From assembly GCA_030019445.1 (NCBI GenBank), contig JASEEU010000001.1:248001-312000 (forward strand): a stretch of 64,000 nt of DNA, written 5' to 3'. Below, piece by piece: positions 19,059 through 24,355 of the stretch. The stretch comes from Anaerosomatales bacterium. GTDB taxonomy: Bacteria; Actinomycetota; Coriobacteriia; Anaerosomatales; Anaerosomataceae. The notes under the pieces were generated by a model. That model was given only the letters and a program-made list of their open reading frames with translations. It searched no databases and was not told where the DNA came from. Made by a program: the position numbers and the translations under genes. The number at the start of each line of letters is the position of its first letter. Position 1 is the first letter of the stretch.

Positions 19059-19135
<77 letters not shown>

Positions 19136-19524
19136 GCACTTTTCGGGGCACCCGCAAGGGTGCCTCGTTGCGTCTACCAGCGGTTATGGCAATGACCCAG
19201 ATATGATATGCGGCTACAAACGCGTCGTGTCGGTCCTTCCCCTTCGCTCTGGCTACCGGAGGTCTCCCAATCACAGGGTCCGGCTGCTCTCCACTAGGTC
19301 CGGTCGGGTCCGCCAGGAACCGGCGAGTCCAAGCCCACCTTGGCTTGGTCCACGACGACCAACGTCATGAACCGCCGTACATCGGGGTTCGAGTAGAAGA
19401 GCTTGCGGCTGAGTTGGTGCATGTGCCTGCGTCGAATCACTACGATATCCTGAGACAAGGTTGGATTCCGCCGAGCGTGGTCAGATCGCGTTGCACTTGA
19501 CTGGACCTGTTGGGGAGTAGTGTC
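19136..19524. other. non-coding stretch between tRNA-Pro and the first island gene
   Basis: About 390 bases without a convincing gene. It holds a hairpin just after the tRNA (19147-19164), a copy of ACAAACGCGTC at 19216-19226 that recurs at 23272-23282, and short open frames in several frames that have no recognisable similarity. A minus-strand frame ending near 19294 overlaps the first island gene and looks fortuitous. The promoter of the island operon should lie here but no clear consensus pair is seen. Confidence 0.5.
19147..19164 (+). terminator. hairpin after tRNA-Pro
   Basis: GGCACCC-GCAA-GGGTGCC is a seven-base-pair stem with a four-base loop 12 bases after the CCA end. It is preceded rather than followed by a short T run (CTTTTC), so it may be a weak terminator that came with the inserted DNA. 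Confidence 0.5.
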
Positions 19525-20247
19525 TTGGCCGCAGAAGTGCCCCCCATATGGAATGAAGACCGGCAAGCCCTCCACGACTTGATCGAGGCGCGTAGTCCGG
19601 AGCTGGCGGGGCTGTACCGACAAGGAGTGCGGGCGCTCGAGACGCCATGCGAACCCGGCGAAGAACGTGCGCGGCTGGCAGTCATTGGTCATTGCTTTCG
19701 AGAGCTAATGAACAACCTGCCGAACGCCCTGGGTGATGTCCCGGCATTCACGACGAGTAGTCGCGAAGACGAGGACAACGCCAAGAAGTCCGTGGTGGGC
19801 GCCTACGGCGAGATCTACGGGATCCCCGAACAACCTCCCGCAGATTCTGCCGACGCCGATTCAGACCTCTCAGAGCTTGTGACTGTGCAGCGTCGTTTGC
19901 TGCGGGCCGTCGAGTCTCTCGCGATCTACTACCGCCTTGGTGAGCGTCATCTCCGGGAGCGTGATTCGGCGGTGGTTGCCGGTCGGGTCGACGTCAACGC
20001 ACCGGGCATGAAGCCCTGGCGCGACGCTCGCCGGTTCTTCACCCGCTACTCGCATTTCGACCGGCAGAACGGCTCGAAACCCAAGGCGGTTGATCTGCCC
20101 AGCGACGATCAAGCGCTGGCGCATCTGGAGAACGTCGAGGCGATTCTTCTCGCCCGTATGCGGCCGTTCTTCGACTCCCTTGGGGAGATCGATGACCTAC
20201 TGGCGATCGCCAACGCTGCCGAGGAGGAGGGGGCTGGCGATGACTGA
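19525..20247 (+). CDS. unrecognised protein, first gene of the tRNA-Pro island
   Basis: A 240-residue soluble, mostly helical, acidic protein that I do not recognise. Visible blocks are ALHDLIEARSPELAGLY, a region RLAVIGHCFRELMNNLP at about residues 50-66, an acidic linker PPADSADADSDLSEL, and RRFFTRYSHFDRQNG at about 170. No membrane helix, signal peptide or nucleotide-binding loop is evident. The start is uncertain: TTG 19525 is chosen because GGGGAG lies seven bases before it; TTG 19510 is the frame's first alternative. It overlaps the large following gene by eight bases, so the two are a translationally coupled pair and probably act together. R-F-F-T-R-Y-S-H has the Arg-x6-His spacing seen in HEPN ribonucleases, but that alone is weak. 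Confidence 0.75.
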   Translation: MAAEVPPIWNEDRQALHDLIEARSPELAGLYRQGVRALETPCEPGEERARLAVIGHCFRELMNNLPNALGDVPAFTTSSREDEDNAKKSVVGAYGEIYGIPEQPPADSADADSDLSELVTVQRRLLRAVESLAIYYRLGERHLRERDSAVVAGRVDVNAPGMKPWRDARRFFTRYSHFDRQNGSKPKAVDLPSDDQALAHLENVEAILLARMRPFFDSLGEIDDLLAIANAAEEEGAGDD

Positions 20248-23158
20248 AGCTGACAAGTACAAGGTTCCGACCGACGCAGAGGTCCACGCAATCCGACTGC
20301 GGCTGAACAAGTTGCCGCTTCGCACCGCCTTCTACTCGAAGCTGGACAATCCGCATTGGGTGACGGCGCTGGCCAAGCAGGACGTGTTCAAGAACCCGCC
20401 CGCTACCGAAGTGATGCCAGACGGGTTGGTTCGATCGGACGTCTGGCCCGAGATCGACTATCTCGTCCGCATGGCTCCCATCGTGAGCAGTGAGGTAGCC
20501 GCTGTGCTCGAGCCAATCGCAGGTTCGACTAATCAGTGGGTGCGGCGGGGGATCATGGAAGCGTGCACGGTTATGGACCCGGCTGATGTCGCCCGCCTAG
20601 TCCCAAAGATGAAGCAGTGGCCGGGTGACGAGTTGGCCAACTTCCGCCTCGACCCTCGGGATATCTCGTCGGTGATCGTCCGTCTGCTCGAAGGTGGGCA
20701 ACACGCCAAGGGGATGCAGCTCGCGGTCGCGTTTTTTGGCCCTCGGCCAGCTGCCCGCCCGCCGAAGTACGGCATACCGGAGCCGGACTCGGGCATGGAG
20801 CTCTACTGGTATCACGAGGAACTGCCGAAGGTGGCCGCCGCGCTCGGGCGTTCCCGCGTGCCCACTCTGGTGAAGTGGCTGCGTGCCTATCAGGAGCACT
20901 CTACTTCCTTCAGTGGAGCTTCTGGCTCGGACATGAGCTACATCTGGCGCCCGATCATCCGGGAATCGCCAGAGCACTCCGGTCATGAGATTGGCGACGC
21001 ACTGGTCGATGAGCTGCGTGCCGCCCTCGTCGACTCGCTAGGAACGTCCACTGACGCAGTCTGCGCCTTGCTTGCAGACGATCAGCCGTTGCTGAGACGC
21101 ATTGCCCTGGATGTCTTGGCCGAAGCGATTGAAGGGGTCGAAGATAAGTCAGCTGAACGCGCCGCAGCCTCGTCCGAGTATGAGCAGCAGCTTGCTCAGG
21201 CCGCTCAGCGAGTCCTCGAGGACGAGACATTCATCGACAGCAACTACCGGGGCGAGTATGTCCCATTCGTTAGGGCGTGCCTTGGATGGCGTTTGATGGT
21301 CGACGTCTCACCCTTCTTTGAAGAGGTGCGCAGGGGGCCGCTGTCTCTGAGGGACGAACGTCGCGAGCGCTTCGCCCAGGAAGGCGACACGCCGGAACAG
21401 GCAGAAGAGCGTCGCGAGGACTACAGGAAGCACTGGCAGCACAGCATGCTCACCTTGGTGGGTCACGGCCTGCTGCCGGATGACCTCGACGCTCTACTAT
21501 CGTCCCTCGACGAGCAGTACGGAGTCATCGAGGTGCGGGACGAGTTGGTCCATATCGAGTTGTTCACCGGATCGACTAGTCCAATTGACGTCGAGACGAT
21601 GCGAGCCATGGACAACGGTCAGTTGCTCGATCACCTGGCGAAGTGGCATGCCGATCCTGACACCTTCATGGGGCCGACGCATGAAGGACAAGGGCGAGTG
21701 CTCGCCGAGGTGGTTGCTAAGGATCCGACCAGGTTCGTCAGTGAGCTGGAGCACCTGAAGACACTCCGTCCAACGTATATCCGGGCCGTTGTACAGGGAT
21801 GGCGATCGGCGGTTGAGGCGGGCCTTCCGTTGCCTTGGGATTCGGTTCTGACGTTCGCAGAGTGGGTAGTCGGCCTTCACGACGACATCAAGGTAGAGGG
21901 GGAGGGCGACGAGTTCGACGACGATCGTGACTACCGCGCGCTGAAGTCCGAGCTGCTAAGGCTCATCGAGTCGGGCCTGTCGGCCAAACAAGGCGACGAA
22001 TCGGCCGCCATTCCTTGCGACCTCGCTGTTCGGGTCTTGGGAGTGCTGACGGTCTTCGCATCTGACCCCGAGCCGGCGCCTGAGTACGAGGCGGAGTACG
22101 GCGGAGACAGCATGGATCCGCTGACTCTGTCGCTGAACACGACGCGTCCCGTTGCGGTCAGAGCGCTGATCCGACTAGTGCACCGGTTCTCGGGCTCAGC
22201 GACTGCCGACGCGGCACTGTCGCTTCTGGACCAACATCTCGATGGCCACGATGAGTCACTCGCAGTCGCAGCCGCTTTCGGAGAGGGAACCGGGCGGCTC
22301 TACGACTCAGTCCAGCCGTGGATCGAGGAGCGCGTCGGCATCCTGTATGGGAATGCCGCGCCAACAAGTCCATGGCAGCAGGTTGCTCTCTCAACCGCAT
22401 TGGCCACCCATCGCGTCCATATGGCTCTGATCGAGCTGCTCAGGGGGCCGCTGTCGCTGACCATCGAGCAGATGCCTGACACGGCCCTGACAGCTGGCTG
22501 GCGTACTCACACGCGGACGTTCCCGCAGCTCATCGGGGATTGGCTTGTCACCGCAATGATCGGTGGCCACCTGGCTCCGGATGATCCTCTGGTGGAGGCG
22601 TGGTTCACACGTGCTGATGCCGATCTGCGAGGTGAGGTCCTCGGGCATTTGGCTTGGCAAACCATGCACTGGCGGACGGTGCCGGACGATGTTCTCGAGC
22701 GAGTAGCAGTGCTATGGGATCGCCGCACCGAGCACGTCAGGGAGCATCCGGAAGATGCGGCCGAACTGTCCGGTGCCTACTGGTTTGCGCGCAGCGACAA
22801 GCTCGGGCCGGAATGGTGGCTGCCCAGACTCGAATACGCTTCGTCCGTGATTCCGAACTACGACATGCACGGCATGGTCGGAGAGAAACTCGCTCGCGTT
22901 GCAGCGACGGATCCGGATACCAGTCTGAAGATCCTCGAGAACGTTCTAACCGACGCGCCAGTCGATCATGGCCTCATGTACTACGACCTAATCGAACACG
23001 CCGTGCCCCAAGTCATCGCGGCAGCGCTTGATAGCGGCGACGCCGAGGTGGCGAATCGGGCGGCCGACCTTATGAATCGGCTGGGAGACAGGGGCCACAT
23101 CGGACTCAAGGAGCGGGTGGAGAAGCTTCGGGCGCCGGGATTCGATGCCGAGCAATAG
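20240..23158 (+). CDS. unrecognised 972-residue helical protein, second gene of the tRNA-Pro island
   Basis: A 972-residue protein without recognisable family motifs. It is soluble, rich in amphipathic helices of HEAT/TPR-like length (for example WPEIDYLVRMAPIVSSEVAAVLEPI and repeated LxxLL-type segments), and looks like an all-helical solenoid scaffold. I see no Walker A loop, protease triad, nuclease DxK pattern, signal peptide or membrane helix. An acidic insertion (EGEGDEFDDDRDY) occurs around residue 560. The hexapeptide RGPLSL occurs twice, about 370 residues apart, from two nearly identical 20-base DNA segments. ATG 20240 has a GGAGGAGG tract upstream and overlaps the end of the 240-residue partner. 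Codon use is less GC-rich than the rest of the window. A two-gene cassette of this size at a tRNA suggests an accessory function such as defence, but nothing in the sequence proves it. Confidence 0.8.
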   Translation: MTEADKYKVPTDAEVHAIRLRLNKLPLRTAFYSKLDNPHWVTALAKQDVFKNPPATEVMPDGLVRSDVWPEIDYLVRMAPIVSSEVAAVLEPIAGSTNQWVRRGIMEACTVMDPADVARLVPKMKQWPGDELANFRLDPRDISSVIVRLLEGGQHAKGMQLAVAFFGPRPAARPPKYGIPEPDSGMELYWYHEELPKVAAALGRSRVPTLVKWLRAYQEHSTSFSGASGSDMSYIWRPIIRESPEHSGHEIGDALVDELRAALVDSLGTSTDAVCALLADDQPLLRRIALDVLAEAIEGVEDKSAERAAASSEYEQQLAQAAQRVLEDETFIDSNYRGEYVPFVRACLGWRLMVDVSPFFEEVRRGPLSLRDERRERFAQEGDTPEQAEERREDYRKHWQHSMLTLVGHGLLPDDLDALLSSLDEQYGVIEVRDELVHIELFTGSTSPIDVETMRAMDNGQLLDHLAKWHADPDTFMGPTHEGQGRVLAEVVAKDPTRFVSELEHLKTLRPTYIRAVVQGWRSAVEAGLPLPWDSVLTFAEWVVGLHDDIKVEGEGDEFDDDRDYRALKSELLRLIESGLSAKQGDESAAIPCDLAVRVLGVLTVFASDPEPAPEYEAEYGGDSMDPLTLSLNTTRPVAVRALIRLVHRFSGSATADAALSLLDQHLDGHDESLAVAAAFGEGTGRLYDSVQPWIEERVGILYGNAAPTSPWQQVALSTALATHRVHMALIELLRGPLSLTIEQMPDTALTAGWRTHTRTFPQLIGDWLVTAMIGGHLAPDDPLVEAWFTRADADLRGEVLGHLAWQTMHWRTVPDDVLERVAVLWDRRTEHVREHPEDAAELSGAYWFARSDKLGPEWWLPRLEYASSVIPNYDMHGMVGEKLARVAATDPDTSLKILENVLTDAPVDHGLMYYDLIEHAVPQVIAAALDSGDAEVANRAADLMNRLGDRGHIGLKERVEKLRAPGFDAEQ
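21331..21350 (+). repeat. 20-base repeat inside the large island gene, copy 1
   Basis: CAGGGGGCCGCTGTCTCTGA matches 22441-22460 at 19 of 20 bases. Both copies are in the same reading frame and encode RGPLSL. Confidence 0.6.
22441..22460 (+). repeat. 20-base repeat inside the large island gene, copy 2
   Basis: CAGGGGGCCGCTGTCGCTGA is the second copy of the repeat at 21331-21350, 1,110 bases downstream. It may reflect an internally duplicated structural unit or a recent gene-conversion tract. Confidence 0.6.
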
Positions 23159-23287
23159 GCCCACTTCGAGGACGAGGACAAGAATCAGAGAAGCCTACCC
23201 AGGAAGGCGTTCGTTTGCCACCGCACTCCTATTCCTGAGATCTGGGCCCCGAATGCTCCCTCGCCACAGTCACAAACGCGTCCACTA

Positions 23288-23297
23288 AGCCCGACCA
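23288..23297 (+). repeat. right 10-bp direct repeat (attR-like)
   Basis: AGCCCGACCA is an exact copy of the last ten bases of tRNA-Pro. It is followed ten bases later by a strong terminator, as expected for the displaced original 3' flank of the tRNA gene. Confidence 0.6.
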
Positions 23298-23307
23298 TGC
23301 GAACACG

Positions 23308-23335
23308 AGCCCCGCCGGCATCCGGCGGGGCTTTC
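23308..23335 (+). terminator. intrinsic terminator, probably the original tRNA-Pro terminator
   Basis: AGCCCCGCCGG (23308-23318), loop CAT and CCGGCGGGGCT (23322-23332) form an eleven-base-pair stem, followed by TTCGTGT. Its distance from the AGCCCGACCA copy suggests it once ended tRNA-Pro transcripts; now it follows the island genes. Confidence 0.8.
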
Positions 23336-23404
23336 GTGTATGCCGACGCCGTCCGTACCCTGTATCCTGCTAGCAGACCCGCCGCCCGCTCGAGGGGGAA
23401 GTGC

Positions 23405-24355
23405 ATGACCGCGCGAATCACGGTTCGCTGGCTTGACGACTCGAAGCTGCTCGAAGGCGGCGCCGAGGTGTTGCCGCGACTCTCGGGGCGCGGGCACGTG
23501 TGGATCGACGTCCTGGCGCCCGACGAGGCGGCGCTACGGGCGGTGTCCGCTGCCTACCCGCTCCCTCCTCTGGCGATCGAGGACTGCCTGCACTTCCCGC
23601 AGCGCCCGAAATTCGACGTCTACGACGACGTCACCTTCGCCATCTGGCTTCTTCCGCACGTGCTCACGGGGGACGGCATCGAGAGCCGCGAGCTCGACGT
23701 GTTCCTCGGCCCAGAGCACCTCGTGACCGTGCACCGTGAAGAGCTCGCCGCCGTGAACGCTGTGGCCGAGGACGCGCGTTCCTATCTTGCGCGCGGCGTG
23801 GAATGGACGCTGCACGCGCTCATCGACCGTGCGGTGGATGACATCTTCCCGGTCGTCGAGGAGCTGTCGGACGAGCTCGAGGCGCTCGAGGACGCGATGC
23901 TCGAGCAGGCGCAGCCGGCGCACCTGGAGCGCCTGCACCGGGCGCGGCGGTCGCTCGTGGACCTGCATCGCATCGTGAATCCCGAACGCGAGGTCGTGCG
24001 GGCGCTGGCGCGCCTCGAGGCGTTCGTCGCCCCGGAGGCGTACATGTACTACCAGGATATCGGCGACCACCTCGCGCGGCTCTCGGATACGATCGACACC
24101 TACCGCGAGGTGGCTGCGGGCACGATGGACATCTACCTCTCGGCCACCTCGAACCGCATGAACGCCGTCATGAAGACGCTCACGATCGTCGCGACCATCT
24201 TCATGCCGCTCACGCTCATCTCGGGGATATACGGGATGAACTTCGAGTACATGCCCGAGCTCAGTTGGCGCTACGGCTACTTCGTCGTGCTCGGCGTCAT
24301 GCTCGCGCTCGGCGTCTGGATGATCTGGTTCTTCCGAAGGAGAGACTGGTGGTAG
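23405..24355 (+). CDS. corA: CorA-family magnesium/cobalt transporter
   Basis: A 316-residue protein with the CorA plan: N-terminal alpha/beta cytoplasmic domain (ITVRWLDDSKLLEGG, IEDCLHFPQRPKFDVYDD), a long helical stalk with DIGDHLARLSDTIDTYRE, then two C-terminal membrane helices. The first helix ends in ISGIYGMNFEYMPE, which contains the universal GMN selectivity motif, and the protein ends in a basic RRRDWW tail. It forms a pentameric channel for Mg2+ (or Co2+/Ni2+). ATG 23405 follows GAGGGGGAAG; TATCCT at 23363-23368 is a possible -10. The stop overlaps the next start by seven bases. Confidence 0.95.
   Translation: MTARITVRWLDDSKLLEGGAEVLPRLSGRGHVWIDVLAPDEAALRAVSAAYPLPPLAIEDCLHFPQRPKFDVYDDVTFAIWLLPHVLTGDGIESRELDVFLGPEHLVTVHREELAAVNAVAEDARSYLARGVEWTLHALIDRAVDDIFPVVEELSDELEALEDAMLEQAQPAHLERLHRARRSLVDLHRIVNPEREVVRALARLEAFVAPEAYMYYQDIGDHLARLSDTIDTYREVAAGTMDIYLSATSNRMNAVMKTLTIVATIFMPLTLISGIYGMNFEYMPELSWRYGYFVVLGVMLALGVWMIWFFRRRDWW

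Follow-up and report, generated by a model that had tools for sequence, protein, structure and literature searches.

A small helical protein paired with a DSR1-type solenoid in a tRNA-Pro island: probably an undescribed anti-phage system

Within the window, the 64-kb stretch of DNA analysed here, a 4162-bp island of low GC content (19136..23297) is inserted directly downstream of a tRNA-Pro(GGG) gene; this feature and all others described for the locus lie on the plus strand. The tRNA gene (19059..19135, predicted by ARAGORN) is the integration site and remains as an intact copy at the left of the island. Its 3' end, AGCCCGACCA, forms the left direct repeat (19126..19135) and recurs as a displaced copy at the right end of the island (23288..23297). 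This sequence has two copies in 64 kb, against 0.26 expected. When the direct repeats are extended, 15 of 18 bases are identical at the 4162-bp spacing, and among first-order Markov simulations 0.6% showed a tRNA 3' suffix of at least 10 bases again within 5 kb (p ~0.006).

The island carries two genes only and no integrase gene. The small gene, P0001 (19525..20247), begins with a TTG start codon and encodes 240 residues; the large gene, P0002 (20240..23158), encodes a HEAT/ARM-like helical solenoid of 972 residues. The two frames share 8 bp, ATGACTGA. The preliminary description had already placed two genes overlapping by eight bases between tRNA-Pro and a displaced copy of its 3' end, and the coordinates bear this out. 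The leftover stretches (19136-19524 and 23159-23287) hold no long frame of their own, we found no promoter-like site for the pair, and the island itself has no known defence gene next to the two genes. The lower GC content claimed earlier is also evident, at 0.618 for the island against 0.702 and 0.683 for its flanks; the island is the lowest-GC 4.15-kb stretch in the window, and GC3 is 0.71-0.72 inside it compared with 0.85-0.90 in neighbouring genes. Directly 3' of the tRNA, the island supplies a GC-rich hairpin (19144..19172, fold z -3.7). A strong hairpin with a T run (23306..23337, fold z -5.7) follows the right repeat and, because it lies just past the displaced tRNA copy, is probably the tRNA-Pro terminator, separated from its tRNA by the insertion. 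The right flank continues with a gene for a CorA-type transporter (23405..24355).

P0001 was absent from all 26 other genomes of the family Anaerosomataceae that were searched, so the pair is not a core locus of its relatives. The CorA gene is present in 25 of the 27 family genomes, and one sister genus has three genomes in which it follows tRNA-Pro after just 95, 144 and 225 bp; these short junctions are the empty site. Among the hallmarks of a tRNA island, the locus thus has the tRNA 3' end repeated at its far end and an empty site in relatives, and lacks an integrase gene of its own. In G008, a fourth member of the sister genus, a 7.5-kb island is bounded by tRNA-Pro on one side and by 45 bp copied from the tRNA 3' end on the other; no integrase was seen in it. 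With this second island and the empty sites, the earlier view of an integrase-free cassette at tRNA-Pro holds. The G008 island (L107, G008:C1:724500-732400) encodes an ArsR regulator and two P-type ATPases according to Pfam, as well as an ABC transporter recognised by eye. In another genome, G015, a large serine recombinase abuts the same tRNA-Pro (L122:83-1609), with IrrE and HTH genes alongside. Since the G008 island and the G015 recombinase sit at the same tRNA, the site is reused. The serine recombinase is a possible source of recombinase for the site, and integrase-free cargo may be moved there by a recombinase supplied in trans. The idea of an island in every tRNA-Pro-CorA interval of the family was rejected, as ordinary genes fill the interval in most genera.

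DSR proteins are known as a sensor combined with SIR2. The preliminary description had called both island proteins unrecognised, which is true of P0001, matching no family, but not of P0002, which belongs to the DSR1 sensor family. P0002 itself matches the PADLOC Dsr1 model (PDLC04166) with an E-value of 7.7e-12 over residues 430-584 only, and gave nothing significant in Pfam or NCBIfam. Relatives whose alignment spans most of P0002 cover the post-SIR2 part of the DSR1 model, close ones over ~850 residues. The intermediates L021, L022 and L023 reach E-values from 3e-29 to 3e-58, residues 179-1065 of L023 corresponding to model positions 295-1166 (E 2.8e-58), and the more distant L031, which aligns with P0002 only at residues 447-541, matches the model with an E-value of 4.4e-130. 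Because the intermediate relatives match, P0002 can be linked to DSR1 also outside residues 430-584. At the level of sequence, and partly through these intermediates, P0002 is thus homologous to the helical (sensor) region that follows SIR2 in DSR1.

The AlphaFold model of P0002 (pLDDT 66, from a two-row alignment) is a helical solenoid throughout, with a small beta hairpin between helices near the N-terminus. Its structural matches are generic HEAT/ARM proteins, e.g., importins and PP2A-A; DSR structures were absent among the matches of this weak model, which we do not count against the kinship with DSR1. Neither P0001 nor P0002 contains a Walker A motif or matches a P-loop NTPase in Pfam, in agreement with the original reading of the large protein as a helical solenoid devoid of an ATPase motif. 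Likewise, neither protein matched SIR2 in Pfam, PADLOC or NCBIfam, nor carries a GAG[VIL]S motif. Two alignments diverged too far to be scanned for patterns. We found neither P0002 nor single relatives in viral contigs, and no P0002 in phage records.

P0001 gave nothing significant in Pfam, NCBIfam, PADLOC, PHROGs or PDB sequences and belongs to no housekeeping family. The model of P0001 is an all-helical bundle (mean pLDDT 59, two-row alignment), from which, weak as it is, Foldseek and VIA-align retrieved generic helical bundles only (best Z 7.9). A distant profile match (hhalign probability 89%, E 2.4e-6) relates it to a domain that we named AHR after its motif and that forms the N-terminus of L022, L023, L063 and the Streptomyces plasmid protein L075. 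Across five P0001-type proteins and these four AHR relatives, H56, R59, E60, H177 and F215 are invariant. The helix bearing the HxxRE residues and the second histidine are, judged by this conservation, the likeliest places for an active or binding site. We also considered whether P0001 could be a HEPN ribonuclease. The R-x4-6-H motif of HEPN proteins is not conserved throughout the nine-sequence set: R50-x5-H56 occurs in four of the five P0001-type proteins and is missing in L071 and the four AHR relatives, and R170-x6-H177 occurs in only two of the nine. No Pfam family, HEPN included, matched P0001 at E-values up to 10, and the small protein of L004 had no HEPN match at E-values up to 1.

Four distant Actinomycetota genomes retain the pair, with the genes either side by side or fused to encode a single protein. 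A P0001 homologue lies directly upstream of the large gene in Paenarthrobacter L004 (217 and 960 residues, 4-bp overlap), in L071 (221 and 939 residues, a few bases apart) and in L072 (233 and 957 residues from the likely start, 8-bp overlap). In L062 the pair is a single protein of 1180 residues, with the P0001-type part at residues 36-245 and the solenoid at 241-1171. The coupled pair of the preliminary description therefore does recur; the overlap, which was to be checked as a constant feature, is seen in L004 and L072 but not in L071 or the fused L062. Linkage, overlap and fusion together strongly support, from gene arrangement, that P0001 and P0002 act as one functional unit. P0001-type systems are rare, occurring in 5 genomes as judged from three overlapping samples of ~396 Actinomycetota genomes each. 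The P0001 profile, run against 296 genomes of the phylum, hit only the window, G069 and, weakly, G059; we took the G059 match as chance, its frame resembling glycerol-3-phosphate dehydrogenase by eye. No P0001 was found in plasmids.

Known defence genes stand beside several relatives, as the earlier suggestion of a defence setting would lead one to expect. The L004 pair has as neighbours a SIR2/Dsr1-like protein, an NsnA-like GmrSD_N protein and a RiboL-PSP HEPN protein, the L062 fusion a type I specificity subunit (HsdS), and the L072 pair an Mrr endonuclease. In L064, a C-terminal remnant of a P0002 homologue adjoins HmaA/HmaB, together with an IS element (Mutator-type transposase).

The partner of the solenoid varies. 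In a tree of 18 solenoids, the five P0001-type sequences fall into one clade (support 100/99) and the DUF255 fusions into another (100/100), and SIR2 partners appear in two places, with starred branches that also allow a single origin. SIR2 is encoded by a separate adjacent gene in L021, L030 and L031. On the Haloferax mediterranei plasmid pHME132, a protein of 1483 residues (L076:1563-6014) consists of an Avs4/nSTAND-like NTPase followed by a C-terminal DSR1-type solenoid, with transmembrane helices predicted by eye in its N-terminal part, and is likely a STAND receptor using a DSR1 sensor. Six genomes (L024-L029) encode proteins of ~1600 residues in which a DSR1-type solenoid is fused behind an N-terminus of the DUF255/thioredoxin type; three of these fusions share neighbours (biotin genes, by eye). 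The DUF255-solenoid genes may be core loci in one family, and because they sit at such apparent core loci, the DSR1-type solenoid may not be confined to defence. Judged from the sequences, a constant C-terminal solenoid with a changing N-terminal module or partner gene is a sensor/output pattern.

Further neighbours adjoin two of the AHR-solenoid genes. In L022 (L022:5896-10526), the gene overlaps one for a GTPase (MMR_HSR1 and DUF697), possibly a further two-gene variant. On a plasmid of Streptomyces sp. NBC_00212 (L075:6446-9718), the AHR-solenoid protein adjoins TnsA-like, Mu-type transposase and TniB genes and is possibly cargo of a Tn7-like transposon.

The island is probably an undescribed anti-phage system. 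Since P0002 belongs to the DSR1 sensor family, the idea of defence is now based on homology and no longer on location. A literature search, with subscription papers and preprints outside its scope, returned no description of SIR2-less DSR1-type pairs. We consider it reasonably likely that the island encodes a two-component system, with a DSR1-type solenoid as the sensor of infection and P0001 acting in the position of SIR2; the active part would then be P0001 and not P0002. By analogy with DSR2, the P0002 solenoid would recognise something that the phage produces in the course of infection, and would itself change shape. P0001 might bind the N-terminal end of P0002, where DSR1 has its fused SIR2, and its position suggests that it could be the effector, a new all-helical module. 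Activation would presumably arrest the infected cell by means other than the hydrolysis of NAD+ by SIR2.

A different division of labour, with P0001 as an adaptor, co-sensor or antitoxin-like inhibitor and the activity residing in P0002 or a recruited host protein, appears rather unlikely to us. P0001 is a helical bundle of no known enzyme family with a weak model (pLDDT 59), and antitoxins, too, are typically small upstream partners with overlapping frames. However, P0002 is helical throughout, with no Walker A or SIR2 motif, P0001 occupies the place held by SIR2 and the STAND module in relatives, and the fusion in L062 would be unusual for a labile antitoxin. It is still less probable that the pair has a cellular role other than defence, e.g., as a scaffold or in stress, and that a general helical platform underlies the likeness to DSR1. 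The patchy presence of the pair, its tRNA island and the defence genes near its relatives all argue against such a role, as do the SIR2 or STAND partners in other branches and the Streptomyces plasmid relative beside Tn7-like transposition genes; the fusion of DUF255/thioredoxin to the same solenoid in six genomes, three with common neighbours, is what speaks for it.

We regard it as very improbable that the 10-bp repeat arose by chance or that the island has decayed into a non-functional remnant. The repeat is indeed short, and neither an integrase nor a promoter-like site was found. Against this reading stand the simulations of the repeat (p ~0.006), the empty sites in three relatives, the second, independent island with its 45-bp copy at the same tRNA, and two intact frames with residues conserved across distant homologues.

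The two-component anti-phage system thus remains our preferred reading. Should one and the same sensor accept different partners, a search for solenoids that lack SIR2 could reveal new systems, and P0001 would represent a novel means of halting an infected cell. More tentatively, and with somewhat less than an even chance of both parts holding together, P0001 and the AHR domains would form a new effector family that stops phage without loss of NAD+, and the DSR1-type solenoid would be a general phage-sensing chassis with at least five output modules (SIR2, P0001-type, AHR, STAND NTPase and DUF255 thioredoxin), split or fused.

In comparison with known systems, the locus resembles tRNA-targeting genomic islands in the direct repeat of the tRNA 3' end, the empty site in relatives and the lower GC content, and differs from them in having no integrase and two genes only. 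With DSR1 (defence-associated sirtuin 1; PDLC04166), P0002 shares the helical solenoid that follows SIR2; whereas DSR1 has the SIR2 NADase at its N-terminus or in a partner gene, the island has no SIR2 and instead an unrelated helical protein of 240 residues. In DSR2, SIR2 is activated when the phage tail tube protein binds to the region after it, which is built of two helix-turn-helix motifs carrying a hairpin, then a bundle, HEAT repeats and finally a C-terminal domain (PMC11263360, PMC11087589). P0002 lacks SIR2 and gave no sequence match to DSR2, but its predicted model likewise places a hairpin between helices near the N-terminus. Avs4-like STAND receptors differ from P0001 and P0002 in possessing an NTPase; in the Haloferax protein, the DSR1-type solenoid takes the C-terminal place that sensors hold in STAND receptors.
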